A stretch of 64,000 nucleotides of DNA, taken from assembly GCA_013433145.1 (NCBI GenBank), contig CM024168.1, forward strand, positions 8,316,184-8,380,183. The letters run 5' to 3'. Positions 26,831 to 51,088 of the stretch are shown in pieces. The first letter of the stretch is position 1, and every line of letters starts with the position of its first letter. The position numbers were made by a program, and so were the translations under genes. This stretch comes from Ascaris suum. Lineage: Eukaryota; Nematoda; Chromadorea; Rhabditida; Ascarididae. The notes beneath the pieces are model-generated. The model was not told where the DNA came from. It was given only the letters and a program-made list of their open reading frames with translations, and made no database searches.

Positions 26831-27128
26831 TCTGGTACAATATATGCTAGAGATACTCGTCTAAAACCGTGCAGGTAATAGATCCGACATCTCATTTCCA
26901 AAAAATCATGAAACAATGAGGTTCTCCGCTCCTCCAGAACAGGCCACCATTCGAGGAACATCTGAACTACCGCGCCGAGCAAGTGTCGCACAGCTCAACC
27001 AACGTTGTCTCCCAGAAGAAGTCTCACAAAACATCCAGCAATCCGTTTGCAGAAAAATGTCAATATAGCGGTGCTGTCTTCGGTGATTGAAATATGTGCG
27101 GTTTTGTTAATCTGACCTCTATTTCCCA

Positions 27129-27202
27129 CGCTCCCGGGTGGGCTTGAACCACTAACCTTTCGGTTAACAGCCGAACGCGCTAGCCGATTGCGCCACGGAA
27201 GC
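27129..27202 (-). tRNA. tRNA-Asn(GTT), array copy 1
   Basis: Folds as 7-bp acceptor stem (GCTTCCG with CGGGAGC), 4-bp D stem GCGC/GCGC with GG in its loop, anticodon stem TTCGG/CCGAA, loop CTGTTAA (U33, anticodon GTT), 5-nt variable loop, T stem and loop TTCAAGC, discriminator G, no encoded CCA. It decodes AAC and AAU. This edge copy alone has A for G at the start of the T stem (AGTGG opposite CCACC), an A:C mismatch. Its 3' spacer is type A and diverged, ending TTAATCTG. It may be weakened. Confidence 0.85.
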
Positions 27203-27484
27203 TCCGGAATAATATTTCGGTGAACTACTCCTCTGAAACCGTGCACGCAATACGCTCGACATCCGAAAACTGATGAAAGAATGAAGTTCTCCCCTGCTCA
27301 AGAACAAGCCACCGTTCGAGGAAAATTTCAACTTCCACGCCCAGCACGCGTCGCAGAGCTCAATCAACCGTCGTTATCACTCACAAAACATCGAGCAACC
27401 GTTTGTAGAATAATGTCAATATAGGGGTGCTGTCTTCAGTGATTGAAATATGTGCCGTTTTGTTAACCTGACCTCTATTTCCCA

Positions 27485-27488
27485 CGCT

Positions 27489-27538
<50 letters not shown>

Positions 27539-27558
27539 GCCGATTGCGCCACGGGAGC
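27485..27558 (-). tRNA. tRNA-Asn(GTT), array copy 2
   Basis: Starts GCTCCCG, giving a full Watson-Crick acceptor stem (C4:G69). Type A spacer variant with CTTCAGTG. Confidence 0.95.
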
Positions 27559-27840
27559 TCCGGAATAATATTTCGGTGAACTACTCCTCTGAAACCGTGC
27601 ACGCAATACGCTCGACATCCGAAAACTGATGAAAGAATGAAGTTCTCCCCTGCTCAAGAACAAGCCACCGTTCGAGGAAAATTTCAACTTCCACGCCCAG
27701 CACGCGTCGCAGAGCTCAATCAACCGTCGTTATCACTCACAAAACATCGAGCAACCGTTTGTAGAATAATGTCAATATAGGGGTGCTGTCTTCAGTGATT
27801 GAAATATGTGCCGTTTTGTTAACCTGACCTCTATTTCCCA

Positions 27841-27844
27841 CGCT

Positions 27845-27894
<50 letters not shown>

Positions 27895-27914
27895 GCCGAT
27901 TGCGCCACGGGAGC
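27841..27914 (-). tRNA. tRNA-Asn(GTT), array copy 3
   Basis: The only other copy with C4:G69 (5' GCTCCCG). Spacer identical to copy 2. Confidence 0.95.
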
Positions 27915-28196
27915 TCCGGAATAATATTTCGGTGAACTACTCCTCTGAAACCGTGCACGCAATACGCTCGACATCCGAAAACTGATGAAAGAATGAAGTT
28001 CTCCCCTGCTCAAGAACAAGCCACCGTTCGAGGAAAATTTCAACTTCCACGCCCAGCACGCGTCGCAGAGCTCAATCAACCGTCGTTATCACTCACAAAA
28101 CATCGAGCAACCGTTTGTAGAATAATGTCAATATAGTGGTGGTATTTTCCGTGATTGAAAAATGTCCGGTTCTGTTAACCTGACCTCTATTTCCCA

Positions 28197-28200
28197 CGCT

Positions 28201-28250
<50 letters not shown>

Positions 28251-28270
28251 GCCGATTGCGCCACGGAAGC
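28197..28270 (-). tRNA. tRNA-Asn(GTT), array copy 4
   Basis: First copy with U4:G69 and a type B spacer (T5 run 35-39 nt past the gene). Its upstream flank has AATGCTC near 28360. Confidence 0.95.
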
Positions 28271-28552
28271 TCCGGAATAATATTTCGGTGAACTACTCCT
28301 CTGAAACCGTGCACGCAATACGCTCGACATCCGAAAACTGATGAAAGAATGAAGTTCTCCAATGCTCAAGAACAAGCCACCGTTCGAGGAAAATTTCAAC
28401 TTCCACGCCCAGCACGCGTCGCAGAGCTCAATCAACCGTCGTTATCACTCACAAAACATCGAGCAACCGTTTGTAGAATAATGTCAATATAGTGGTGGTA
28501 TTTTCCGTGATTGAAAAATGTCCGGTTCTGTTAACCTGACCTCTATTTCCCA

Positions 28553-28556
28553 CGCT

Positions 28557-28606
<50 letters not shown>

Positions 28607-28626
28607 GCCGATTGCGCCACGGAAGC
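28553..28626 (-). tRNA. tRNA-Asn(GTT), array copy 5
   Basis: Intact U4:G69 gene; type B spacer with CAATATAG. Confidence 0.95.
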
Positions 28627-28908
28627 TCCGGAATAATATTTCGGTGAACTACTCCTCTGAAACCGTGCACGCAATACGCTCGACATCCGAAAACTGATGA
28701 AAGAATGAAGTTCTCCCCTGCTCAAGAACAAGCCACCGTTCGAGGAAAATTTCAACTTCCACGCCCAGCACGCGTCGCAGAGCTCAATCAACCGTCGTTA
28801 TCACTCACAAAACATCGAGCAACCGTTTGTAGAATAATGTCAATGTAGTGGTGGTATTTTCCGTGATTGAAAAATGTCCGGTTCTGTTAACCTGACCTCT
28901 ATTTCCCA

Positions 28909-28912
28909 CGCT

Positions 28913-28962
<50 letters not shown>

Positions 28963-28982
28963 GCCGATTGCGCCACGGAAGC
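28909..28982 (-). tRNA. tRNA-Asn(GTT), array copy 6
   Basis: Intact; type B spacer, sub-variant CAATGTAG. Confidence 0.95.
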
Positions 28983-29264
28983 TCCGGAATAATATTTCGG
29001 TGAACTACTCCTCTGAAACCGTGCACGCAATACGCTCGACATCCGAAAACTGATGAAAGAATGAAGTTCTCCCCTGCTCAAGAACAAGCCACCGTTCGAG
29101 GAAAATTTCAACTTCCACGCCCAGCACGCGTCGCAGAGCTCAATCAACCGTCGTTATCACTCACAAAACATCGAGCAACCGTTTGTAGAATAATGTCAAT
29201 GTAGTGGTGGTATTTTCCGTGATTGAAAAATGTCCGGTTCTGTTAACCTGACCTCTATTTCCCA

Positions 29265-29268
29265 CGCT

Positions 29269-29318
<50 letters not shown>

Positions 29319-29338
29319 GCCGATTGCGCCACGGAAGC
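29265..29338 (-). tRNA. tRNA-Asn(GTT), array copy 7
   Basis: Intact; type B, CAATGTAG. Confidence 0.95.
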
Positions 29339-29620
29339 TCCGGAATAATATTTCGGTGAACTACTCCTCTGAAACCGTGCACGCAATACGCTCGACATCC
29401 GAAAACTGATGAAAGAATGAAGTTCTCCCCTGCTCAAGAACAAGCCACCGTTCGAGGAAAATTTCAACTTCCACGCCCAGCACGCGTCGCAGAGCTCAAT
29501 CAACCGTCGTTATCACTCACAAAACATCGAGCAACCGTTTGTAGAATAATGTCAATGTAGTGGTGGTATTTTCCGTGATTGAAAAATGTCCGGTTCTGTT
29601 AACCTGACCTCTATTTCCCA

Positions 29621-29624
29621 CGCT

Positions 29625-29674
<50 letters not shown>

Positions 29675-29694
29675 GCCGATTGCGCCACGGAAGC
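29621..29694 (-). tRNA. tRNA-Asn(GTT), array copy 8
   Basis: Intact; type B, CAATGTAG. Private T at 29749 in its 5' flank. Confidence 0.95.
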
Positions 29695-29976
29695 TCCGGA
29701 ATAATATTTCGGTGAACTACTCCTCTGAAACCGTGCACGCAATACGCTTGACATCCGAAAACTGATGAAAGAATGAAGTTCTCCCCTGCTCAAGAACAAG
29801 CCACCGTTCGAGGAAAATTTCAACTTCCACGCCCAGCACGCGTCGCAGAGCTCAATCAACCGTCGTTATCACTCACAAAACATCGAGCAACCGTTTGTAG
29901 AATAATGTCAATATAGTGGTGGTATTTTCCGTGATTGAAAAATGTCCGGTTCTGTTAACCTGACCTCTATTTCCCA

Positions 29977-29980
29977 CGCT

Positions 29981-30030
<50 letters not shown>

Positions 30031-30050
30031 GCCGATTGCGCCACGGAAGC
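29977..30050 (-). tRNA. tRNA-Asn(GTT), array copy 9
   Basis: Intact; type B, back to CAATATAG. Confidence 0.95.
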
Positions 30051-30332
30051 TCCGGAATAATATTTCGGTGAACTACTCCTCTGAAACCGTGCACGCAATA
30101 CGCTCGACATCCGAAAACTGATGAAAGAATGAAGTTCTCCCCTGCTCAAGAACAAGCCACCGTTCGAGGAAAATTTCAACTTCCACGCCCAGCACGCGTC
30201 GCAGAGCTCAATCAACCGTCGTTATCACTCACAAAACATCGAGCAACCGTTTGTAGAATAATGTCAATGTAGTGGTGGTATTTTCCGTGATTGAAAAATG
30301 TCCGGTTCTGTTAACCTGACCTCTATTTCCCA

Positions 30333-30336
30333 CGCT

Positions 30337-30386
<50 letters not shown>

Positions 30387-30406
30387 GCCGATTGCGCCAC
30401 GGAAGC
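30333..30406 (-). tRNA. tRNA-Asn(GTT), array copy 10
   Basis: Intact; type B, CAATGTAG. Confidence 0.95.
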
Positions 30407-30688
30407 TCCGGAATAATATTTCGGTGAACTACTCCTCTGAAACCGTGCACGCAATACGCTCGACATCCGAAAACTGATGAAAGAATGAAGTTCTCCCCTG
30501 CTCAAGAACAAGCCACCGTTCGAGGAAAATTTCAACTTCCACGCCCAGCACGCGTCGCAGAGCTCAATCAACCGTCGTTATCACTCACAAAACATCGAGC
30601 AACCGTTTGTAGAATAATGTCAATGTAGTGGTGGTATTTTCCGTGATTGAAAAATGTCCGGTTCTGTTAACCTGACCTCTATTTCCCA

Positions 30689-30692
30689 CGCT

Positions 30693-30742
<50 letters not shown>

Positions 30743-30762
30743 GCCGATTGCGCCACGGAAGC
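30689..30762 (-). tRNA. tRNA-Asn(GTT), array copy 11
   Basis: Intact; type B, CAATGTAG. Confidence 0.95.
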
Positions 30763-31044
30763 TCCGGAATAATATTTCGGTGAACTACTCCTCTGAAACC
30801 GTGCACGCAATACGCTCGACATCCGAAAACTGATGAAAGAATGAAGTTCTCCCCTGCTCAAGAACAAGCCACCGTTCGAGGAAAATTTCAACTTCCACGC
30901 CCAGCACGCGTCGCAGAGCTCAATCAACCGTCGTTATCACTCACAAAACATCGAGCAACCGTTTGTAGAATAATGTCAATGTAGTGGTGGTATTTTCCGT
31001 GATTGAAAAATGTCCGGTTCTGTTAACCTGACCTCTATTTCCCA

Positions 31045-31048
31045 CGCT

Positions 31049-31098
<50 letters not shown>

Positions 31099-31118
31099 GC
31101 CGATTGCGCCACGGAAGC
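31045..31118 (-). tRNA. tRNA-Asn(GTT), array copy 12
   Basis: Intact; type B, last copy with CAATGTAG. Confidence 0.95.
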
Positions 31119-31399
31119 TCCGGAATAATATTTCGGTGAACTACTCCTCTGAAACCGTGCACGCAATACGCTCGACATCCGAAAACTGATGAAAGAATGA
31201 AGTTCTCCCCTGCTCAAGAACAAGCCACCGTTCGAGGAAAATTTCAACTTCCACGCCCAGCACGCGTCGCAGAGCTCAATCAACCGTCGTTATCACTCAC
31301 AAAACATCGAGCAACCGTTTGTAGAATAATGTCAATATAGTGGTGGTATTTTCCGTGATTGAAAAATGTCCGTTCTGTTAACCTGACCTCTATTTCCCA

Positions 31400-31403
31400 C
31401 GCT

Positions 31404-31453
<50 letters not shown>

Positions 31454-31473
31454 GCCGATTGCGCCACGGAAGC
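31400..31473 (-). tRNA. tRNA-Asn(GTT), array copy 13
   Basis: Intact; type B with one G lost (TGTCCGTTCTG), 355-bp unit. Confidence 0.95.
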
Positions 31474-31754
31474 TCCGGAATAATATTTCGGTGAACTACT
31501 CCTCTGAAACCGTGCACGCAATACGCTCGACATCCGAAAACTGATGAAAGAATGAAGTTCTCCCCTGCTCAAGAACAAGCCACCGTTCGAGGAAAATTTC
31601 AACTTCCACGCCCAGCACGCGTCGCAGAGCTCAATCAACCGTCGTTATCACTCACAAAACATCGAGCAACCGTTTGTAGAATAATGTCAATATAGGGGTG
31701 GTATTTTCCGTGATTGAAAAATGTCCGTTTTGTTAACCTGACCTCTATTTCCCA

Positions 31755-31758
31755 CGCT

Positions 31759-31808
<50 letters not shown>

Positions 31809-31828
31809 GCCGATTGCGCCACGGAAGC
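31755..31828 (-). tRNA. tRNA-Asn(GTT), array copy 14
   Basis: Intact; hybrid spacer: type A ends (GGGG start, CCGTTTTG end) around a type B core. Confidence 0.95.
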
Positions 31829-32109
31829 TCCGGAATAATATTTCGGTGAACTACTCCTCTGAAACCGTGCACGCAATACGCTCGACATCCGAAAACTGAT
31901 GAAAGAATGAAGTTCTCCCCTGCTCAAGAACAAGCCACCGTTCGAGGAAAATTTCAACTTCCACGCCCAGCACGCGTCGCAGAGCTCAATCAACCGTCGT
32001 TATCACTCACAAAACATCGAGCAACCGTTTGTAGAATAATGTCAATATAGTGGTGGTATTTTCCGTGATTGAAAAATGTCCGTTCTGTTAACCTGACCTC
32101 TATTTCCCA

Positions 32110-32113
32110 CGCT

Positions 32114-32163
<50 letters not shown>

Positions 32164-32183
32164 GCCGATTGCGCCACGGAAGC
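32110..32183 (-). tRNA. tRNA-Asn(GTT), array copy 15
   Basis: Intact; type B with the same one-base loss as copy 13. Confidence 0.95.
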
Positions 32184-32465
32184 TCCGGAATAATATTTCG
32201 GTGAACTACTCCTCTGAAACCGTGCACGCAATACGCTCGACATCCGAAAACTGATGAAAGAATGAAGTTCTCCCCTGCTCAAGAACAAGCCACCGTTCGA
32301 GGAAAATTTCAACTTCCACGCCCAGCACGCGTCGCAGAGCTCAATCAACCGTCGTTATCACTCACAAAACATCGAGCAACCGTTTGTAGAATAATGTCAA
32401 TATAGGGGTGGTATTTTCCGTGATTGAAAAATGTCCGGTTCTGTTAACCTGACCTCTATTTCCCA

Positions 32466-32469
32466 CGCT

Positions 32470-32519
<50 letters not shown>

Positions 32520-32539
32520 GCCGATTGCGCCACGGAAGC
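32466..32539 (-). tRNA. tRNA-Asn(GTT), array copy 16
   Basis: Intact; type B core with type A start (GGGGTGG). Confidence 0.95.
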
Positions 32540-32821
32540 TCCGGAATAATATTTCGGTGAACTACTCCTCTGAAACCGTGCACGCAATACGCTCGACATC
32601 CGAAAACTGATGAAAGAATGAAGTTCTCCCCTGCTCAAGAACAAGCCACCGTTCGAGGAAAATTTCAACTTCCACGCCCAGCACGCGTCGCAGAGCTCAA
32701 TCAACCGTCGTTATCACTCACAAAACATCGAGCAACCGTTTGTAGAATAATGTCAATATAGTGGTGGTATTTTCCGTGATTGAAAAATGTCCGGTTCTGT
32801 TAACCTGACCTCTATTTCCCA

Positions 32822-32825
32822 CGCT

Positions 32826-32875
<50 letters not shown>

Positions 32876-32895
32876 GCCGATTGCGCCACGGAAGC
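32822..32895 (-). tRNA. tRNA-Asn(GTT), array copy 17
   Basis: Intact; standard type B. Confidence 0.95.
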
Positions 32896-33177
32896 TCCGG
32901 AATAATATTTCGGTGAACTACTCCTCTGAAACCGTGCACGCAATACGCTCGACATCCGAAAACTGATGAAAGAATGAAGTTCTCCCCTGCTCAAGAACAA
33001 GCCACCGTTCGAGGAAAATTTCAACTTCCACGCCCAGCACGCGTCGCAGAGCTCAATCAACCGTCGTTATCACTCACAAAACATCGAGCAACCGTTTGTA
33101 GAATAATGTCAATATAGTGGTGGTATTTTCCGTGATTGAAAAATGTCCGGTTCTGTTAACCTGACCTCTATTTCCCA

Positions 33178-33181
33178 CGCT

Positions 33182-33231
<50 letters not shown>

Positions 33232-33251
33232 GCCGATTGCGCCACGGAAGC
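33178..33251 (-). tRNA. tRNA-Asn(GTT), array copy 18
   Basis: Intact; standard type B, unit identical to copy 17. Confidence 0.95.
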
Positions 33252-33533
33252 TCCGGAATAATATTTCGGTGAACTACTCCTCTGAAACCGTGCACGCAAT
33301 ACGCTCGACATCCGAAAACTGATGAAAGAATGAAGTTCTCCCCTGCTCAAGAACAAGCCACCGTTCGAGGAAAATTTCAACTTCCACGCCCAGCACGCGT
33401 CGCAGAGCTCAATCAACCGTCGTTATCACTCACAAAACATCGAGCAACCGTTTGTAGAATAATGTCAATATAGTGGTGGTATTTTCCGTGATTGAAAAAT
33501 GTCCGGTTCTGTTAACCTGACCTCTATTTCCCA

Positions 33534-33537
33534 CGCT

Positions 33538-33587
<50 letters not shown>

Positions 33588-33607
33588 GCCGATTGCGCCA
33601 CGGAAGC
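33534..33607 (-). tRNA. tRNA-Asn(GTT), array copy 19
   Basis: Intact; standard type B. Confidence 0.95.
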
Positions 33608-33889
33608 TCCGGAATAATATTTCGGTGAACTACTCCTCTGAAACCGTGCACGCAATACGCTCGACATCCGAAAACTGATGAAAGAATGAAGTTCTCCCCT
33701 GCTCAAGAACAAGCCACCGTTCGAGGAAAATTTCAACTTCCACGCCCAGCACGCGTCGCAGAGCTCAATCAACCGTCGTTATCACTCACAAAACATCGAG
33801 CAACCGTTTGTAGAATAATGTCAATATAGTGGTGGTATTTTCCGTGATTGAAAAATGTCCGGTTCTGTTAACCTGACCTCTATTTCCCA

Positions 33890-33893
33890 CGCT

Positions 33894-33943
<50 letters not shown>

Positions 33944-33963
33944 GCCGATTGCGCCACGGAAGC
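33890..33963 (-). tRNA. tRNA-Asn(GTT), array copy 20
   Basis: Intact; standard type B. Confidence 0.95.
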
Positions 33964-34245
33964 TCCGGAATAATATTTCGGTGAACTACTCCTCTGAAAC
34001 CGTGCACGCAATACGCTCGACATCCGAAAACTGATGAAAGAATGAAGTTCTCCCCTGCTCAAGAACAAGCCACCGTTCGAGGAAAATTTCAACTTCCACG
34101 CCCAGCACGCGTCGCAGAGCTCAATCAACCGTCGTTATCACTCACAAAACATCGAGCAACCGTTTGTAGAATAATGTCAATATAGTGGTGGTATTTTCCG
34201 TGATTGAAAAATGTCCGGTTCTGTTAACCTGACCTCTATTTCCCA

Positions 34246-34249
34246 CGCT

Positions 34250-34299
<50 letters not shown>

Positions 34300-34319
34300 G
34301 CCGATTGCGCCACGGAAGC
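34246..34319 (-). tRNA. tRNA-Asn(GTT), array copy 21
   Basis: Intact; standard type B. Confidence 0.95.
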
Positions 34320-34601
34320 TCCGGAATAATATTTCGGTGAACTACTCCTCTGAAACCGTGCACGCAATACGCTCGACATCCGAAAACTGATGAAAGAATG
34401 AAGTTCTCCCCTGCTCAAGAACAAGCCACCGTTCGAGGAAAATTTCAACTTCCACGCCCAGCACGCGTCGCAGAGCTCAATCAACCGTCGTTATCACTCA
34501 CAAAACATCGAGCAACCGTTTGTAGAATAATGTCAATATAGTGGTGGTATTTTCCGTGATTGAAAAATGTCCGTTTCTGTTAACCTGACCTCTATTTCCC
34601 A

Positions 34602-34605
34602 CGCT

Positions 34606-34655
<50 letters not shown>

Positions 34656-34675
34656 GCCGATTGCGCCACGGAAGC
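34602..34675 (-). tRNA. tRNA-Asn(GTT), array copy 22
   Basis: Intact; type B with G-to-T change (CCGTTTCTG), shared with copy 56. Confidence 0.95.
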
Positions 34676-34956
34676 TCCGGAATAATATTTCGGTGAACTA
34701 CTCCTCTGAAACCGTGCACGCAATACGCTCGACATCCGAAAACTGATGAAAGAATGAAGTTCTCCCCTGCTCAAGAACAAGCCACCGTTCGAGGAAAATT
34801 TCAACTTCCACGCCCAGCACGCGTCGCAGAGCTCAATCAACCGTCGTTATCACTCACAAAACATCGAGCAACCGTTTGTAGAATAATGTCAATATAGTGG
34901 TGGTATTTTCCGTGATTGAAAAATGTCCGTTTTGTTAACCTGACCTCTATTTCCCA

Positions 34957-34960
34957 CGCT

Positions 34961-35010
<50 letters not shown>

Positions 35011-35030
35011 GCCGATTGCGCCACGGAAGC
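34957..35030 (-). tRNA. tRNA-Asn(GTT), array copy 23
   Basis: Intact; type B core ending like type A (CCGTTTTG), 355-bp unit. Confidence 0.95.
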
Positions 35031-35310
35031 TCCGGAATAATATTTCGGTGAACTACTCCTCTGAAACCGTGCACGCAATACGCTCGACATCCGAAAACTG
35101 ATGAAAGAATGAAGTTCTCCCCTGCTCAAGAACAAGCCACCGTTCGAGGAAAATTTCAACTTCCACGCCCAGCACGCGTCGCAGAGCTCAATCAACCGTC
35201 GTTATCACTCACAAAACATCGAGCAACCGTTTGTAGAATAATGTCAATATAGGGTGGTATTTTCGGTGATTGAAAAATGTCCGTTTTGTTAACCTGACCT
35301 CTATTTCCCA

Positions 35311-35314
35311 CGCT

Positions 35315-35364
<50 letters not shown>

Positions 35365-35384
35365 GCCGATTGCGCCACGGAAGC
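35311..35384 (-). tRNA. tRNA-Asn(GTT), array copy 24
   Basis: Intact; hybrid spacer (AGGGTGG, TTTTCGGTG, T5 kept), 354-bp unit. Confidence 0.95.
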
Positions 35385-35665
35385 TCCGGAATAATATTTC
35401 GGTGAACTACTCCTCTGAAACCGTGCACGCAATACGCTCGACATCCGAAAACTGATGAAAGAATGAAGTTCTCCCCTGCTCAAGAACAAGCCACCGTTCG
35501 AGGAAAATTTCAACTTCCACGCCCAGCACGCGTCGCAGAGCTCAATCAACCGTCGTTATCACTCACAAAACATCGAGCAACCGTTTGTAGAATAATGTCA
35601 ATATAGGGGTGCTTCTTCGGTGATTGAAATATGTGCCGTTTTGTTAACCTGACCTCTATTTCCCA

Positions 35666-35669
35666 CGCT

Positions 35670-35719
<50 letters not shown>

Positions 35720-35739
35720 GCCGATTGCGCCACGGAAGC
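35666..35739 (-). tRNA. tRNA-Asn(GTT), array copy 25
   Basis: Intact; first type A spacer after the B block, shortened (GTGCTTCTTCGG). Confidence 0.95.
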
Positions 35740-36021
35740 TCCGGAATAATATTTCGGTGAACTACTCCTCTGAAACCGTGCACGCAATACGCTCGACATC
35801 CGAAAACTGATGAAAGAATGAAGTTCTCCCCTGCTCAAGAACAAGCCACCGTTCGAGGAAAATTTCAACTTCCACGCCCAGCACGCGTCGCAGAGCTCAA
35901 TCAACCGTCGTTATCACTCACAAAACATCGAGCAACCGTTTGTAGAATAATGTCAATATAGTGGTGGTATTTTCCGTGATTGAAAAATGTCCGGTTCTGT
36001 TAACCTGACCTCTATTTCCCA

Positions 36022-36025
36022 CGCT

Positions 36026-36075
<50 letters not shown>

Positions 36076-36095
36076 GCCGATTGCGCCACGGAAGC
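36022..36095 (-). tRNA. tRNA-Asn(GTT), array copy 26
   Basis: Intact; standard type B between two type A units. Confidence 0.95.
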
Positions 36096-36377
36096 TCCGG
36101 AATAATATTTCGGTGAACTACTCCTCTGAAACCGTGCACGCAATACGCTCGACATCCGAAAACTGATGAAAGAATGAAGTTCTCCCCTGCTCAAGAACAA
36201 GCCACCGTTCGAGGAAAATTTCAACTTCCACGCCCAGCACGCGTCGCAGAGCTCAATCAACCGTCGTTATCACTCACAAAACATCGAGCAACCGTTTGTA
36301 GAATAATGTCAATATAGGGGTGCTGTCTTCGGTGATTGAAATATGTGCCGTTTTGTTAACCTGACCTCTATTTCCCA

Positions 36378-36381
36378 CGCT

Positions 36382-36431
<50 letters not shown>

Positions 36432-41425: not shown

Positions 41426-41707
41426 TCCGGAATAATATTTCGGTGAACTACTCCTCTGAAACCGTGCACGCAATACGCTCGACATCCGAAAACTGATGAA
41501 AGAATGAAGTTCTCCCCTGCTCAAGAACAAGCCACCGTTCGAGGAAAATTTCAACTTCCACGCCCAGCACGCGTCGCAGAGCTCAATCAACCGTCGTTAT
41601 CACTCACAAAACATCGAGCAACCGTTTGTAGAATAATGTCAATATAGGGGTGCTGTCTTCGGTGATTGAAATATGTGCCGTTTTGTTAACCTGACCTCTA
41701 TTTCCCA

Positions 41708-41711
41708 CGCT

Positions 41712-41761
<50 letters not shown>

Positions 41762-41781
41762 GCCGATTGCGCCACGGAAGC
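41708..41781 (-). tRNA. tRNA-Asn(GTT), array copy 42
   Basis: Intact; standard type A. Confidence 0.95.
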
Positions 41782-42063
41782 TCCGGAATAATATTTCGGT
41801 GAACTACTCCTCTGAAACCGTGCACGCAATACGCTCGACATCCGAAAACTGATGAAAGAATGAAGTTCTCCCCTGCTCAAGAACAAGCCACCGTTCGAGG
41901 AAAATTTCAACTTCCACGCCCAGCACGCGTCGCAGAGCTCAATCAACCGTCGTTATCACTCACAAAACATCGAGCAACCGTTTGTAGAATAATGTCAATA
42001 TAGGGGTGCTGTTTTCGGTGATTGAAATATGTGCCGTTTTGTTAACCTGACCTCTATTTCCCA

Positions 42064-42067
42064 CGCT

Positions 42068-42117
<50 letters not shown>

Positions 42118-42137
42118 GCCGATTGCGCCACGGAAGC
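42064..42137 (-). tRNA. tRNA-Asn(GTT), array copy 43
   Basis: Intact; type A with GCTGTTTTCGG. Confidence 0.95.
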
Positions 42138-42419
42138 TCCGGAATAATATTTCGGTGAACTACTCCTCTGAAACCGTGCACGCAATACGCTCGACATCCG
42201 AAAACTGATGAAAGAATGAAGTTCTCCCCTGCTCAAGAACAAGCCACCGTTCGAGGAAAATTTCAACTTCCACGCCCAGCACGCGTCGCAGAGCTCAATC
42301 AACCGTCGTTATCACTCACAAAACATCGAGCAACCGTTTGTAGAATAATGTCAATATAGGGGTGCTGTCTTCGGTGATTGAAATATGTGCCGTTTTGTTA
42401 ACCTGACCTCTATTTCCCA

Positions 42420-42423
42420 CGCT

Positions 42424-42473
<50 letters not shown>

Positions 42474-42493
42474 GCCGATTGCGCCACGGAAGC
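42420..42493 (-). tRNA. tRNA-Asn(GTT), array copy 44
   Basis: Intact; standard type A. Confidence 0.95.
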
Positions 42494-42775
42494 TCCGGAA
42501 TAATATTTCGGTGAACTACTCCTCTGAAACCGTGCACGCAATACGCTCGACATCCGAAAACTGATGAAAGAATGAAGTTCTCCCCTGCTCAAGAACAAGC
42601 CACCGTTCGAGGAAAATTTCAACTTCCACGCCCAGCACGCGTCGCAGAGCTCAATCAACCGTCGTTATCACTCACAAAACATCGAGCAACCGTTTGTAGA
42701 ATAATGTCAATATAGGGGTGCTGTCTTCGGTGATTGAAATATGTGCCGTTTTGTTAACCTGACCTCTATTTCCCA

Positions 42776-42779
42776 CGCT

Positions 42780-42829
<50 letters not shown>

Positions 42830-42849
42830 GCCGATTGCGCCACGGAAGC
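42776..42849 (-). tRNA. tRNA-Asn(GTT), array copy 45
   Basis: Intact; standard type A, unit identical to copy 44. Confidence 0.95.
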
Positions 42850-43131
42850 TCCGGAATAATATTTCGGTGAACTACTCCTCTGAAACCGTGCACGCAATAC
42901 GCTCGACATCCGAAAACTGATGAAAGAATGAAGTTCTCCCCTGCTCAAGAACAAGCCACCGTTCGAGGAAAATTTCAACTTCCACGCCCAGCACGCGTCG
43001 CAGAGCTCAATCAACCGTCGTTATCACTCACAAAACATCGAGCAACCGTTTGTAGAATAATGTCAATATAGGGGTGCTGTCTTCGGTGATTGAAATATGT
43101 GCCGTTTTGTTAACCTGACCTCTATTTCCCA

Positions 43132-43135
43132 CGCT

Positions 43136-43185
<50 letters not shown>

Positions 43186-43205
43186 GCCGATTGCGCCACG
43201 GAAGC
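43132..43205 (-). tRNA. tRNA-Asn(GTT), array copy 46
   Basis: Intact; standard type A. Confidence 0.95.
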
Positions 43206-43485
43206 TCCGGAATAATATTTCGGTGAACTACTCCTCTGAAACCGTGCACGCAATACGCTCGACATCCGAAAACTGATGAAAGAATGAAGTTCTCCCCTGC
43301 TCAAGAACAAGCCACCGTTCGAGGAAAATTTCAACTTCCACGCCCAGCACGCGTCGCAGAGCTCAATCAACCGTCGTTATCACTCACAAAACATCGAGCA
43401 ACCGTTTGTAGAATAATGTCAATATAGGGGTGCTATTTTCGTGATTGAAATATGTCCGTTTTGTTAACCTGACCTCTATTTCCCA

Positions 43486-43489
43486 CGCT

Positions 43490-43539
<50 letters not shown>

Positions 43540-43559
43540 GCCGATTGCGCCACGGAAGC
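43486..43559 (-). tRNA. tRNA-Asn(GTT), array copy 47
   Basis: Intact; type A with two losses (TTTTCGTG, ATGTCCG), 354-bp unit. Confidence 0.95.
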
Positions 43560-43839
43560 TCCGGAATAATATTTCGGTGAACTACTCCTCTGAAACCGTG
43601 CACGCAATACGCTCGACATCCGAAAACTGATGAAAGAATGAAGTTCTCCCCTGCTCAAGAACAAGCCACCGTTCGAGGAAAATTTCAACTTCCACGCCCA
43701 GCACGCGTCGCAGAGCTCAATCAACCGTCGTTATCACTCACAAAACATCGAGCAACCGTTTGTAGAATAATGTCAATATAGGGGCTGTCTTCGGTGATTG
43801 AAATATGTGCCGTTTTGTTAACCTGACCTCTATTTCCCA

Positions 43840-43843
43840 CGCT

Positions 43844-43893
<50 letters not shown>

Positions 43894-43913
43894 GCCGATT
43901 GCGCCACGGAAGC
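43840..43913 (-). tRNA. tRNA-Asn(GTT), array copy 48
   Basis: Intact; type A with TG lost (GGGGCTGTC), 354-bp unit. Confidence 0.95.
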
Positions 43914-44195
43914 TCCGGAATAATATTTCGGTGAACTACTCCTCTGAAACCGTGCACGCAATACGCTCGACATCCGAAAACTGATGAAAGAATGAAGTTC
44001 TCCCCTGCTCAAGAACAAGCCACCGTTCGAGGAAAATTTCAACTTCCACGCCCAGCACGCGTCGCAGAGCTCAATCAACCGTCGTTATCACTCACAAAAC
44101 ATCGAGCAACCGTTTGTAGAATAATGTCAATATAGGGGTGCTGTCTTCGGTGATTGAAATATGTGCCGTTTTGTTAACCTGACCTCTATTTCCCA

Positions 44196-44199
44196 CGCT

Positions 44200-44249
<50 letters not shown>

Positions 44250-44269
44250 GCCGATTGCGCCACGGAAGC
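44196..44269 (-). tRNA. tRNA-Asn(GTT), array copy 49
   Basis: Intact; standard type A. Confidence 0.95.
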
Positions 44270-44551
44270 TCCGGAATAATATTTCGGTGAACTACTCCTC
44301 TGAAACCGTGCACGCAATACGCTCGACATCCGAAAACTGATGAAAGAATGAAGTTCTCCCCTGCTCAAGAACAAGCCACCGTTCGAGGAAAATTTCAACT
44401 TCCACGCCCAGCACGCGTCGCAGAGCTCAATCAACCGTCGTTATCACTCACAAAACATCGAGCAACCGTTTGTAGAATAATGTCAATATAGGGGTGCTCT
44501 CTTCGGTGATTGAAATATGTGCCGTTTTGTTAACCTGACCTCTATTTCCCA

Positions 44552-44555
44552 CGCT

Positions 44556-44605
<50 letters not shown>

Positions 44606-44625
44606 GCCGATTGCGCCACGGAAGC
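44552..44625 (-). tRNA. tRNA-Asn(GTT), array copy 50
   Basis: Intact; type A with GCTCTCTTCGG, shared with copy 57. Confidence 0.95.
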
Positions 44626-44907
44626 TCCGGAATAATATTTCGGTGAACTACTCCTCTGAAACCGTGCACGCAATACGCTCGACATCCGAAAACTGATGAA
44701 AGAATGAAGTTCTCCCCTGCTCAAGAACAAGCCACCGTTCGAGGAAAATTTCAACTTCCACGCCCAGCACGCGTCGCAGAGCTCAATCAACCGTCGTTAT
44801 CACTCACAAAACATCGAGCAACCGTTTGTAGAATAATGTCAATATAGGGGTGCTGTCTTCGGTGATTGAAATATGTGCCGTTTTGTTAACCTGACCTCTA
44901 TTTCCCA

Positions 44908-44911
44908 CGCT

Positions 44912-44961
<50 letters not shown>

Positions 44962-44981
44962 GCCGATTGCGCCACGGAAGC
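44908..44981 (-). tRNA. tRNA-Asn(GTT), array copy 51
   Basis: Intact; standard type A. Confidence 0.95.
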
Positions 44982-45262
44982 TCCGGAATAATATTTCGGT
45001 GAACTACTCCTCTGAAACCGTGCACGCAATACGCTCGACATCCGAAAACTGATGAAAGAATGAAGTTCTCCCCTGCTCAAGAACAAGCCACCGTTCGAGG
45101 AAAATTTCAACTTCCACGCCCAGCACGCGTCGCAGAGCTCAATCAACCGTCGTTATCACTCACAAAACATCGAGCAACCGTTTGTAGAATAATGTCAATA
45201 TAGGGGTGCTGTTTCGGTGATTGAAATATGTGCCGTTTTGTTAACCTGACCTCTATTTCCCA

Positions 45263-45266
45263 CGCT

Positions 45267-45316
<50 letters not shown>

Positions 45317-45336
45317 GCCGATTGCGCCACGGAAGC
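45263..45336 (-). tRNA. tRNA-Asn(GTT), array copy 52
   Basis: Intact; type A with GCTGTTTCGG, 355-bp unit. Confidence 0.95.
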
Positions 45337-45618
45337 TCCGGAATAATATTTCGGTGAACTACTCCTCTGAAACCGTGCACGCAATACGCTCGACATCCGA
45401 AAACTGATGAAAGAATGAAGTTCTCCCCTGCTCAAGAACAAGCCACCGTTCGAGGAAAATTTCAACTTCCACGCCCAGCACGCGTCGCAGAGCTCAATCA
45501 ACCGTCGTTATCACTCACAAAACATCGAGCAACCGTTTGTAGAATAATGTCAATATAGGGGTGCTGTCTTCGGTGATTGAAAAATGTGCGGTTTTGTTAA
45601 CCTGACCTCTATTTCCCA

Positions 45619-45622
45619 CGCT

Positions 45623-45672
<50 letters not shown>

Positions 45673-45692
45673 GCCGATTGCGCCACGGAAGC
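45619..45692 (-). tRNA. tRNA-Asn(GTT), array copy 53
   Basis: Intact; type A left part with GAAAAATGTGCGG, so a T5 run is present. Confidence 0.95.
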
Positions 45693-45974
45693 TCCGGAAT
45701 AATATTTCGGTGAACTACTCCTCTGAAACCGTGCACGCAATACGCTCGACATCCGAAAACTGATGAAAGAATGAAGTTCTCCCCTGCTCAAGAACAAGCC
45801 ACCGTTCGAGGAAAATTTCAACTTCCACGCCCAGCACGCGTCGCAGAGCTCAATCAACCGTCGTTATCACTCACAAAACATCGAGCAACCGTTTGTAGAA
45901 TAATGTCAATATAGGGGTGCTATCTTCGGTGATTGAAATATGTGCCGTTTTGTTAACCTGACCTCTATTTCCCA

Positions 45975-45978
45975 CGCT

Positions 45979-46028
<50 letters not shown>

Positions 46029-46048
46029 GCCGATTGCGCCACGGAAGC
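45975..46048 (-). tRNA. tRNA-Asn(GTT), array copy 54
   Basis: Intact; type A with GCTATCTTCGG, as copy 34. Confidence 0.95.
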
Positions 46049-46330
46049 TCCGGAATAATATTTCGGTGAACTACTCCTCTGAAACCGTGCACGCAATACG
46101 CTCGACATCCGAAAACTGATGAAAGAATGAAGTTCTCCCCTGCTCAAGAACAAGCCACCGTTCGAGGAAAATTTCAACTTCCACGCCCAGCACGCGTCGC
46201 AGAGCTCAATCAACCGTCGTTATCACTCACAAAACATCGAGCAACCGTTTGTAGAATAATGTCAATATAGGGGTGCTGTCTTCGGTGATTGAAATATGTG
46301 CCGTTTTGTTAACCTGACCTCTATTTCCCA

Positions 46331-46334
46331 CGCT

Positions 46335-46384
<50 letters not shown>

Positions 46385-46404
46385 GCCGATTGCGCCACGG
46401 AAGC
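46331..46404 (-). tRNA. tRNA-Asn(GTT), array copy 55
   Basis: Intact; standard type A. Confidence 0.95.
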
Positions 46405-46686
46405 TCCGGAATAATATTTCGGTGAACTACTCCTCTGAAACCGTGCACGCAATACGCTCGACATCCGAAAACTGATGAAAGAATGAAGTTCTCCCCTGCT
46501 CAAGAACAAGCCACCGTTCGAGGAAAATTTCAACTTCCACGCCCAGCACGCGTCGCAGAGCTCAATCAACCGTCGTTATCACTCACAAAACATCGAGCAA
46601 CCGTTTGTAGAATAATGTCAATATAGTGGTGGTATTTTCCGTGATTGAAAAATGTCCGTTTCTGTTAACCTGACCTCTATTTCCCA

Positions 46687-46690
46687 CGCT

Positions 46691-46740
<50 letters not shown>

Positions 46741-46760
46741 GCCGATTGCGCCACGGAAGC
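46687..46760 (-). tRNA. tRNA-Asn(GTT), array copy 56
   Basis: Intact; isolated type B spacer in the A region, same sub-variant as copy 22, about 12 kb away. Confidence 0.95.
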
Positions 46761-47042
46761 TCCGGAATAATATTTCGGTGAACTACTCCTCTGAAACCGT
46801 GCACGCAATACGCTCGACATCCGAAAACTGATGAAAGAATGAAGTTCTCCCCTGCTCAAGAACAAGCCACCGTTCGAGGAAAATTTCAACTTCCACGCCC
46901 AGCACGCGTCGCAGAGCTCAATCAACCGTCGTTATCACTCACAAAACATCGAGCAACCGTTTGTAGAATAATGTCAATATAGGGGTGCTCTCTTCGGTGA
47001 TTGAAATATGTGCCGTTTTGTTAACCTGACCTCTATTTCCCA

Positions 47043-47046
47043 CGCT

Positions 47047-47096
<50 letters not shown>

Positions 47097-47116
47097 GCCG
47101 ATTGCGCCACGGAAGC
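47043..47116 (-). tRNA. tRNA-Asn(GTT), array copy 57
   Basis: Intact; type A with GCTCTCTTCGG. Confidence 0.95.
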
Positions 47117-47398
47117 TCCGGAATAATATTTCGGTGAACTACTCCTCTGAAACCGTGCACGCAATACGCTCGACATCCGAAAACTGATGAAAGAATGAAG
47201 TTCTCCCCTGCTCAAGAACAAGCCACCGTTCGAGGAAAATTTCAACTTCCACGCCCAGCACGCGTCGCAGAGCTCAATCAACCGTCGTTATCACTCACAA
47301 AACATCGAGCAACCGTTTGTAGAATAATGTCAATATAGGGGTGCTGTCTTCGGTGATTGAAATATGTGCCGTTTTGTTAACCTGACCTCTATTTCCCA

Positions 47399-47402
47399 CG
47401 CT

Positions 47403-47452
<50 letters not shown>

Positions 47453-47472
47453 GCCGATTGCGCCACGGAAGC
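47399..47472 (-). tRNA. tRNA-Asn(GTT), array copy 58
   Basis: Intact; standard type A. Confidence 0.95.
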
Positions 47473-47754
47473 TCCGGAATAATATTTCGGTGAACTACTC
47501 CTCTGAAACCGTGCACGCAATACGCTCGACATCCGAAAACTGATGAAAGAATGAAGTTCTCCCCTGCTCAAGAACAAGCCACCGTTCGAGGAAAATTTCA
47601 ACTTCCACGCCCAGCACGCGTCGCAGAGCTCAATCAACCGTCGTTATCACTCACAAAACATCGAGCAACCGTTTGTAGAATAATGTCAATATAGGGGTGC
47701 TGTCTTCGGTGATTGAAATATGTGCCGTTTTGTTAACCTGACCTCTATTTCCCA

Positions 47755-47758
47755 CGCT

Positions 47759-47808
<50 letters not shown>

Positions 47809-47828
47809 GCCGATTGCGCCACGGAAGC
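47755..47828 (-). tRNA. tRNA-Asn(GTT), array copy 59
   Basis: Intact; standard type A. Confidence 0.95.
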
Positions 47829-48109
47829 TCCGGAATAATATTTCGGTGAACTACTCCTCTGAAACCGTGCACGCAATACGCTCGACATCCGAAAACTGAT
47901 GAAAGAATGAAGTTCTCCCCTGCTCAAGAACAAGCCACCGTTCGAGGAAAATTTCAACTTCCACGCCCAGCACGCGTCGCAGAGCTCAATCAACCGTCGT
48001 TATCACTCACAAAACATCGAGCAACCGTTTGTAGAATAATGTCAATATAGGGGTGCTGTCTTCGGTGATTGAAATATGTGCGTTTTGTTAACCTGACCTC
48101 TATTTCCCA

Positions 48110-48113
48110 CGCT

Positions 48114-48163
<50 letters not shown>

Positions 48164-48183
48164 GCCGATTGCGCCACGGAAGC
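48110..48183 (-). tRNA. tRNA-Asn(GTT), array copy 60
   Basis: Intact; type A with one C lost (ATGTGCGTTTTG), 355-bp unit. Confidence 0.95.
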
Positions 48184-48465
48184 TCCGGAATAATATTTCG
48201 GTGAACTACTCCTCTGAAACCGTGCACGCAATACGCTCGACATCCGAAAACTGATGAAAGAATGAAGTTCTCCCCTGCTCAAGAACAAGCCACCGTTCGA
48301 GGAAAATTTCAACTTCCACGCCCAGCACGCGTCGCAGAGCTCAATCAACCGTCGTTATCACTCACAAAACATCGAGCAACCGTTTGTAGAATAATGTCAA
48401 TATAGGGGTGCTGTCTTCGGTGATTGAAATATGTGCCGTTTTGTTAACCTGACCTCTATTTCCCA

Positions 48466-48469
48466 CGCT

Positions 48470-48519
<50 letters not shown>

Positions 48520-48539
48520 GCCGATTGCGCCACGGAAGC
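48466..48539 (-). tRNA. tRNA-Asn(GTT), array copy 61
   Basis: Intact; standard type A. Confidence 0.95.
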
Positions 48540-48821
48540 TCCGGAATAATATTTCGGTGAACTACTCCTCTGAAACCGTGCACGCAATACGCTCGACATC
48601 CGAAAACTGATGAAAGAATGAAGTTCTCCCCTGCTCAAGAACAAGCCACCGTTCGAGGAAAATTTCAACTTCCACGCCCAGCACGCGTCGCAGAGCTCAA
48701 TCAACCGTCGTTATCACTCACAAAACATCGAGCAACCGTTTGTAGAATAATGTCAATATAGGGGTGCTGTCTTCGGTGATTGAAATATGTGCGGTTTTGT
48801 TAACCTGACCTCTATTTCCCA

Positions 48822-48825
48822 CGCT

Positions 48826-48875
<50 letters not shown>

Positions 48876-48895
48876 GCCGATTGCGCCACGGAAGC
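48822..48895 (-). tRNA. tRNA-Asn(GTT), array copy 62
   Basis: Intact; type A with ATGTGCGG, as at edge copy 1. Confidence 0.95.
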
Positions 48896-49177
48896 TCCGG
48901 AATAATATTTCGGTGAACTACTCCTCTGAAACCGTGCACGCAATACGCTCGACATCCGAAAACTGATGAAAGAATGAAGTTCTCCCCTGCTCAAGAACAA
49001 GCCACCGTTCGAGGAAAATTTCAACTTCCACGCCCAGCACGCGTCGCAGAGCTCAATCAACCGTCGTTATCACTCACAAAACATCGAGCAACCGTTTGTA
49101 GAATAATGTCAATATAGGGGTGCTGTCTTCGGTGATTGAAATATGTGCGGTTTTGTTAACCTGGCCTCTATTTCCCA

Positions 49178-49181
49178 CGCT

Positions 49182-49231
<50 letters not shown>

Positions 49232-49251
49232 GCCGATTGCGCCACGGAAGC
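49178..49251 (-). tRNA. tRNA-Asn(GTT), array copy 63
   Basis: Intact; type A with ATGTGCGG and CCTGGCC in place of CCTGACC. Confidence 0.95.
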
Positions 49252-49533
49252 TCCGGAATAATATTTCGGTGAACTACTCCTCTGAAACCGTGCACGCAAT
49301 ACGCTCGACATCCGAAAACTGATGAAAGAATGAAGTTCTCCCCTGCTCAAGAACAAGCCACCGTTCGAGGAAAATTTCAACTTCCACGCCCAGCACGCGT
49401 CGCAGAGCTCAATCAACCGTCGTTATCACTCACAAAACATCGAGCAACCGTTTGTAGAATAATGTCAATATAGTGGTGCTGTTTTCGGTGATTGAAAAAT
49501 GTGCGGTTTTGTTAACCTGGCCTCTATTTCCCA

Positions 49534-49537
49534 CGCT

Positions 49538-49587
<50 letters not shown>

Positions 49588-49607
49588 GCCGATTGCGCCA
49601 CGGAAGC
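49534..49607 (-). tRNA. tRNA-Asn(GTT), array copy 64
   Basis: Intact; mixed spacer (GTGGTGCTGTTTTCGG, GAAAAATGTGCGG) with T5, and CCTGGCC shared with copy 63. Confidence 0.95.
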
Positions 49608-49889
49608 TCCGGAATAATATTTCGGTGAACTACTCCTCTGAAACCGTGCACGCAATACGCTCGACATCCGAAAACTGATGAAAGAATGAAGTTCTCCCCT
49701 GCTCAAGAACAAGCCACCGTTCGAGGAAAATTTCAACTTCCACGCCCAGCACGCGTCGCAGAGCTCAATCAACCGTCGTTATCACTCACAAAACATCGAG
49801 CAACCGTTTGTAGAATAATGTCAATATAGGGGTGCTGTCTTCGGTGATTGAAAAATGTGCCGTTTTGTTAACCTGACCTCTATTTCCCA

Positions 49890-49893
49890 CGCT

Positions 49894-49943
<50 letters not shown>

Positions 49944-49963
49944 GCCGATTGCGCCACGGAAGC
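49890..49963 (-). tRNA. tRNA-Asn(GTT), array copy 65
   Basis: Intact; type A left part with GAAAAATGTGCCG (T5). Confidence 0.95.
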
Positions 49964-50244
49964 TCCGGAATAATATTTCGGTGAACTACTCCTCTGAAAC
50001 CGTGCACGCAATACGCTCGACATCCGAAAACTGATGAAAGAATGAAGTTCTCCCCTGCTCAAGAACAAGCCACCGTTCGAGGAAAATTTCAACTTCCACG
50101 CCCAGCACGCGTCGCAGAGCTCAATCAACCGTCGTTATCACTCACAAAACATCGAGCAACCGTTTGTAGAATAATGTCAATATAGGGGTGCTGTCTTCGG
50201 TGATTGAAATATGTGCCGTTTGTTAACCTGACCTCTATTTCCCA

Positions 50245-50248
50245 CGCT

Positions 50249-50298
<50 letters not shown>

Positions 50299-50318
50299 GC
50301 CGATTGCGCCACGGAAGC
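50245..50318 (-). tRNA. tRNA-Asn(GTT), array copy 66
   Basis: Intact; type A one base short (GCCGTTTG). Private change GATACC at 50425 in its 5' flank. Confidence 0.95.
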
Positions 50319-50600
50319 TCCGGAATAATATTTCGGTGAACTACTCCTCTGAAACCGTGCACGCAATACGCTCGACATCCGAAAACTGATGAAAGAATGA
50401 AGTTCTCCCCTGCTCAAGAACAAGATACCGTTCGAGGAAAATTTCAACTTCCACGCCCAGCACGCGTCGCAGAGCTCAATCAACCGTCGTTATCACTCAC
50501 AAAACATCGAGCAACCGTTTGTAGAATAATGTCAATATAGTGGTGGTATTTTCCGTGATTGAAAAATGTCCGGTTCTGTTAACCTGACCTCTATTTCCCA

Positions 50601-50604
50601 CGCT

Positions 50605-50654
<50 letters not shown>

Positions 50655-50674
50655 GCCGATTGCGCCACGGAAGC
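50601..50674 (-). tRNA. tRNA-Asn(GTT), array copy 67
   Basis: Intact; isolated type B spacer. Private changes near 50764 and 50805 in its 5' flank. Confidence 0.95.
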
Positions 50675-50956
50675 TCCGGAATAATATTTCGGTGAACTAC
50701 TCCTCTGAAACCGTGCACGCAATACGCTCGACATCCGAAAACTGATGAAAGAATGAAGTTCTCCTCTGCTCAAGAACAAGCCACCGTTCGAGGAAAATTT
50801 CAACCTCCACGCCCAGCACGCGTCGCAGAGCTCAATCAACCGTCGTTATCACTCACAAAACATCGAGCAACCGTTTGTAGAATAATGTCAATATAGGGGT
50901 GCTGTCTTCGGTGATTGAAATATGTGCCGTTTTGTTAACCTGAAATCTATTTCCCA

Positions 50957-50960
50957 CGCT

Positions 50961-51010
<50 letters not shown>

Positions 51011-51030
51011 GCCGATTGCGCCACGGAAGC
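50957..51030 (-). tRNA. tRNA-Asn(GTT), array copy 68
   Basis: Intact tRNA; type A with CCTGAAATC in place of CCTGACCTC. Its 5' flank stays homologous only to about 51088, then diverges into the array border. Confidence 0.95.
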
Positions 51031-51088
51031 TCCGGAATAATATTTCGGTGAACTACTCCTCTGAAACCGTGCACGCAATACGCTCGAC

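Follow-up and report, generated by a model that had tools for sequence, protein, structure and literature searches.

Does a long tandem array of tRNA genes supply the cell with tRNA, or is it a satellite that carries such genes without making use of them? This question is raised by a head-to-tail array of tRNA-Asn(GTT) genes in a stretch of 64,000 nt (G000:C1:8316184-8380183, hereafter the window) of an assembly of 277,773,018 bases in 97 contigs, which probably represents a nematode. Tandem Repeats Finder reported a single array at 26897..51088 (minus strand) with a period of 356 bp, 68.0 copies and 99% matches. Each unit contains one tRNA-Asn gene of 74 nt. ARAGORN found 68 of these genes at 27129..51030, all on the minus strand, and the Rfam family RF00005 matched the array 68 times with 58.8-68.2 bits, compared with a gathering score of 29, that is, all 68 copies were accepted as tRNA genes by both programs. 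In addition, a pattern search detected the A box and the B box in 68 of 68 genes, so every unit carries a complete tRNA with the GTT anticodon and both internal promoter elements of RNA polymerase III (Pol III). A preliminary description of the locus had listed 68 tandem copies in about 24 kb, a 356-bp unit on a single strand, and a complete gene with both promoter boxes in each unit, and all of this was confirmed; of its boundaries (26995..51088), the end is correct, but the start was placed about 100 bp too late. The genes are spaced by exactly 356 bp in 51 of 67 cases and by 353-355 bp in the remaining 16, and the consensus unit has a G+C content of 49%, compared with 42% in the flanks. The copy number given here is that of the assembly, on which the exact count rests.

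The units are near-identical, spacers included, and their variation is almost confined to one patch, which is described below. The gene bodies are identical in 65 of the 68 copies; two have a C at position 4, and the leftmost copy has one other change. At the level of whole units, 35 distinct sequences were found, the commonest of which occurs 17 times. The two main types, A and B, are clustered along the array: type B accounts for most of the left third and type A for most of the remainder, with a neighbor concordance of 0.79 over 67 units (10,000 shuffles: mean 0.51, maximum 0.71). At the left edge, the tRNA gene of the outermost unit is still array-like (73/74), and 80 of the next 86 columns match, after which the sequence is divergent. 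Beyond it, at 26767..26891 (minus strand), lies a decayed, older unit with 74% identity to the unit over 125 nt and a tRNA relic with 81% identity over 58 nt; Rfam had no match to this relic at E <= 5 in 26600-27100. Because the interior is uniform, the left edge decayed and the unit types clustered, we infer amplification and homogenization of the array by exchange and conversion. No RNA gene other than the tRNA scored above the gathering score in 34100-35100 (Rfam), and an exact 22-mer spanning the 5' border of the tRNA-Asn gene had 0 matches in IMG/VR and the GTDB genomes.

What share of the tRNA-Asn genes of this genome does the array represent? A count of the copies elsewhere, which the preliminary description had suggested, showed that the core of the gene occurs at 72 places in the assembly, 68 of them in the array and 4 dispersed (one each on C1, C3, C10 and C15). 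A version of the core pattern with GGTTCGA occurs nowhere in the assembly. Like all counts per tRNA given below, these were obtained with exact core patterns, by which diverged copies are missed. Outside the window, the adjacent 10 kb in each direction contain no further tRNA gene. The array had initially been presented as atypical for animals; the array itself stands, but it is not a lone oddity, because the same genome harbors at least seven further arrays, two of Lys(TTT) and one each of Arg(TCT), Arg(ACG), Arg(CCT), Leu and Asp. The first of these were revealed by an Rfam tRNA family search of the assembly, in which 63 of 14,580 candidates were scored. The Lys(TTT) pattern was found at 42 places (29 in one array, 10 in the second, 3 dispersed), the Arg(TCT) pattern at 85 (83 in one array on C22, 2 dispersed), and the Arg(CCT) pattern at 92 (90 in one array on C19, 2 outside). 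For Asn and these three together, the four tRNAs that were counted, 280 of 291 copies are located in arrays. Two T-arm patterns matched at 1148 and 308 places, compared with 3 and 0 for the reversed controls, and a third, GCAGGTTCGANTCCTGC, which overlaps the first, at 476 places, compared with 0. Among the T-arm matches listed were arrays on C5, C7, C17 and C19, which were identified from short stretches as Leu (10 genes), Asp(GTC) (10), Arg(ACG) (2) and Arg(CCT) (2). About 258 forward matches of GCAGGTTCGANTCCTGC lie beyond the C19 array and the singles among the matches listed, and these unaccounted matches probably indicate further tRNA arrays.

Three of these arrays have features of their own. 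The Arg(TCT) array (G000:C22:4188261-4204119) comprises 83 copies with a period of about 194 bp. The second Lys(TTT) array (G000:C1:3584001-3593900) is partly decayed and is separated from the first by about 190 kb; it is on the opposite strand and has a related trailer sequence. In the Leu array (G000:C5:11465001-11467000), similar units carry two anticodons, AAG in 7 of 10 and TAG in 3 of 10, that is, the anticodon switches within one array.

The genes in the arrays differ slightly from their dispersed counterparts. The tRNA-Asn of the array is identical to three of the dispersed genes at 73 of 74 positions, with a C in the D loop where the dispersed genes carry a T, and has 97% identity to the fourth, which misses a base near the acceptor stem. 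Single-base differences also distinguish the Lys and Arg(TCT) array genes from their dispersed counterparts. Owing to these diagnostic bases, ordinary tRNA sequencing could tell the source of a tRNA, which is usually blocked by identical copies. At E <= 0.01, nothing similar to the spacer of the Asn array was detected around the four dispersed Asn genes (5 kb each) or in the flanks of the window, with the exception of the relic at the edge.

A much larger difference was observed for the terminators. Of 11 dispersed genes that were fetched as a sample of the existing ones (4 Asn, 3 Lys, 2 Thr and 2 Arg(TCT)), 10 have their first TTTT 3-7 nt after the end of the gene; the exception is an Asn gene with a distance of 38 nt. 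Such a close run of four Ts is missing in the Asn array, in which 0 of 68 genes have one within 30 nt. The distance is at least 146 nt in the first Lys array (29 genes) and at least 152 nt in the second (9 genes), in which one additional, odd gene has a TTTT at 6 nt according to the boundaries set by ARAGORN. It is 94 nt in the Arg(CCT) array (2 genes), 71 nt in the Arg(ACG) array (one of two genes was measurable), 18-19 nt in the Leu array (10 genes), and 18 to more than 160 nt in the Asp array (10 genes). For the Arg(TCT) array, distances of 5-15 nt were found, with 81 of 83 genes at 11-15 nt and two exceptions at 5 and 6 nt. Altogether, 3-7 nt is the usual place of the TTTT in 10 of 11 dispersed loci and in 0 of 8 arrays (Fisher p 1.2e-4), a comparison in which the two Lys arrays are related and not fully independent. 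In other organisms, a T-run begins 0-7 nt past every tRNA gene of trypanosomatids (PMC2695483), and one is found within 15 bp of more than 97% of the tRNA genes in budding yeast but of only 50-60% of those in humans (PMC11346459). With about half of the human tRNA genes lacking a T-run within 15 bp, a late terminator neither excludes transcription nor proves silence.

The second regularity on the 3' side concerns the distribution of sequence variation. In the Asn array, 29 of 372 columns are variable across 67 units (the leftmost was excluded), and 19 of these 29 fall within 40 columns, 25-64 nt past the 3' end of the tRNA (binomial p 2.7e-12); in the second unit, with the gene at 27485-27558, this hypervariable patch corresponds to 27421..27460 (minus strand). 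Besides the main haplotypes A and B, the 40 patch columns contain 17 further alleles, compared with 11 elsewhere (p 4.5e-10). Both p values are generous, because adjacent gap columns are not independent. Within the tRNA itself, one column is variable among the 67 units. Is this concentration specific for the Asn array? The first 70 nt 3' of the gene contain 98% of the spacer variation in 25% of the length in the Asn array (67 spacers), 74% in 28% of the length in the first Lys array (28 spacers), and 99% in 58% of the length in the Arg(TCT) array (82 spacers). In the latter, small insertions and deletions form two blocks, +1 to +10 and +53 to +63, and the rest is nearly invariant; because the units are short, the following gene starts about 60 nt after this second block. 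Of the spacer variation, 0% (Asn), 7% (Lys) and 0% (Arg(TCT)) fall in the 50 nt that precede the next gene, and none of the three arrays varies in the final 20 bp. Two small samples count against a general rule: a 3' patch was not clearly detected in the Leu array (9 spacers; 0.80 of the variation in 64% of the length) or in the Asp array (8 spacers; 0.85 in 89%).

The patch could reflect mutation beside transcribed tRNA genes, next to which mutation rates are raised, as cited in PMC8113476. Two other origins were considered and dropped. Type B folds into a better hairpin than type A, but is unexceptional when compared with 1,000 mononucleotide shuffles (fraction 0.108; type A, 0.634). As for a template switch or a local donor that might have given rise to type B, no stretch of at least 8 bases with at least two of the differences between A and B occurs elsewhere in the unit, and the flanks of the window contain only two 10-mers.

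How did the array arise, and are its genes used? The explanation that we favor is that a single tRNA-Asn gene, together with about 280 bp of flanking DNA, was amplified head to tail and that unequal exchange and gene conversion keep the array uniform. Pol III would still transcribe the genes, at least in part. Because the units lack a close T-run, the 3' trailers of the precursor tRNAs would be long, at about 35 to 100 nt, and would be removed by processing, and the array would supply a large share of the tRNA-Asn as a distinct isodecoder, one base off the dispersed genes. As judged from the sequence, the chances are roughly even that the array as a whole is of this kind, i.e., amplified by recombination, homogenized, and composed of intact genes with at least partial transcription by Pol III. 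For productive transcription taken on its own, we likewise put the likelihood at about one half. It is supported by the intact gene bodies, the small number of dispersed genes and the variation beside the gene, and the presence of 68 of 72 core copies in the array favors dosage. Several observations weigh on the opposite side. No TTTT occurs less than 33 nt past any of the 68 array genes (it is at 33-34 nt in 29, at 71 nt in 1, and at 93-96 nt in 38), which favors weak or no productive output. Of the 10 variable columns outside the patch, 1 belongs to the tRNA (P 0.28), which gives no clear sign that the tRNA is better conserved than the spacer within the array. Moreover, the 20-50 bp upstream of the genes lack variation, whereas transcription-associated mutation might be expected to affect both flanks of a gene.

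The array may instead be a silenced or unproductive satellite, in which recombination alone multiplied the copies, chromatin keeps them off, and the few dispersed genes with their good terminators supply the cell. This explanation is possible, and we hold it tentatively as the main alternative. The close TTTT that is typical of the dispersed genes and not usual in any of the eight arrays argues for it, as does the lack of a sign of selection inside the array. There is also a precedent in Arabidopsis, where a small tRNA-Cys cluster is apparently, if not completely, silenced (PMC10701932). However, the bodies are intact in the arrays that were read and differ from the dispersed genes by about one base, and only four dispersed tRNA-Asn genes were found, one of which misses a base near the acceptor stem. 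Four genes are few for a whole isotype. High dosage and a silenced satellite were also the two options of the preliminary description; the copy share speaks for the former and the missing close TTTT for weak output. Alternatively, the array might have been selected as a chromatin boundary, a replication pause site or the like, with its tRNA output being incidental. A human tRNA tandem repeat that binds CTCF has been proposed to be a boundary (PMC4041453), but such a role is improbable here: the window gives no indication of a boundary, the left flank is gene-poor, with the gene TMEM170 about 21 kb away, and periods as well as spacers vary between the arrays.

Two further explanations appear very improbable. 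Long arrays are hard to assemble, and 17 of the 68 units are identical, so that the true locus might contain one or few copies. Yet the 35 distinct units and the clustering of their types speak against the duplication of a single copy, and the assembly contains several arrays that differ in gene and period; the exact number of units may still be off. Hardly credible is a tRNA-derived short interspersed element (SINE), or a similar mobile element, that became tandem by chance. tRNA-like promoters are typical of SINEs. The units, however, contain a complete tRNA gene each, 68 of 72 core copies are found in one array, and the spacer is not matched beside the four dispersed Asn genes.

Late termination might even have contributed to the growth of tRNA arrays across this genome. 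Read-through by Pol III, or stalled replication forks, might break the DNA within 70 nt 3' of late-terminating tRNA genes; error-prone repair would produce the patches, and unequal repair between sister chromatids would expand and homogenize the arrays, which would thus be seeded by such genes. A replication fork barrier acts likewise for ribosomal DNA. We consider this proposal unlikely as it stands, but if it were true, such arrays would be a readable record of Pol III activity in the germline. With terminators that are displaced and patches that are localized, a connection of array growth to Pol III termination and mutation becomes amenable to testing.

Tandem tRNA arrays are of a kind that is already known. 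Eukaryotes have evolved large tRNA clusters on many independent occasions (Bermudez-Santana and others, PMC2888827); clustered or tandem tRNA genes occur in the Drosophila simulans group (PMC7919458), and in plants, clusters defined by a 1-kb rule comprise 2 to 110 genes (PMC12652284). One close likeness is Hydractinia, an animal with several evenly spaced arrays of near-identical tRNA genes and spacers in tens to hundreds of copies. In contrast to the present genome, its arrays cover all 20 amino acids and other non-coding RNAs, and tRNA arrays are called unusual outside Entamoeba (PMC11067881). In Entamoeba, head-to-tail arrays hold almost all tRNA genes, some units have one gene, and spacers vary locally, but the units often comprise several tRNA genes and microsatellite-like repeats (PMC2652664); the array described here has one gene per unit and no such repeats. 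The features shared with these two systems are a single orientation, near-identical units, several arrays per genome and, for the four tRNAs counted, the location of most copies in arrays. The human tRNA variable number tandem repeat at 1q23.3 is also arranged head to tail in an animal, but has 9-43 GC-rich units of 7.3 kb with several tRNA genes and CTCF sites (PMC4041453), in contrast to the one-gene unit of 356 bp. The tRNA-Cys cluster on Arabidopsis chromosome 5 resembles the Asn array in having one tRNA per unit of about 0.4 kb, a pseudogene ahead and dispersed genes elsewhere, but consists of 4-6 units and is reportedly largely silenced (PMC10701932).

The present genome extends this list by a probable nematode, by a very high proportion of array copies among the tRNAs that were counted, and by both of the 3' regularities. 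The hypervariable 3' patch and the comparison of terminators between array and dispersed genes have no counterpart in the available part of the Hydractinia account (PMC11067881). Among the matches listed in a literature search, no title or abstract reported tRNA arrays in nematodes, which is not a claim that they are absent from print, and a word search of the available main text of the Haemonchus contortus genome paper (PMC7652881) did not find the word 'tRNA'. If the species is indeed a nematode, as its splice sites suggest, it is a bilaterian with nearly all copies of several tRNAs in uniform tandem rows. With its several arrays, the genome lends itself to studies of tRNA gene multiplication and of the activity of the resulting copies.

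In the scanned flanks, which did not include the frames of 9903-12000, TMEM170 alone exceeded its Pfam cut-off, with exon matches from 5408 to 2963 on the minus strand. Its two 3' splice sites end in TTTTTTTCAG and GAATTTCAG, and these TTTCAG ends fit the nematode consensus. The exons have 98-100% identity to a public protein, and a search with the TMEM170 exon found only two proteins, 97% identical. Directly at the right end of the array, 51089-53700 contain decayed pieces that resemble retroelements, by eye a Ty3/gypsy integrase and the reverse transcriptase of a long interspersed element (LINE). The integrase-like piece had no match in Pfam, and RVT_1 in 52302-53202 stayed below the Pfam cut-off (E 0.0017). 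The window also contains a 43-bp minisatellite with 4 copies (6823-6993) and an (AT) microsatellite with about 86 copies (58337-58508).

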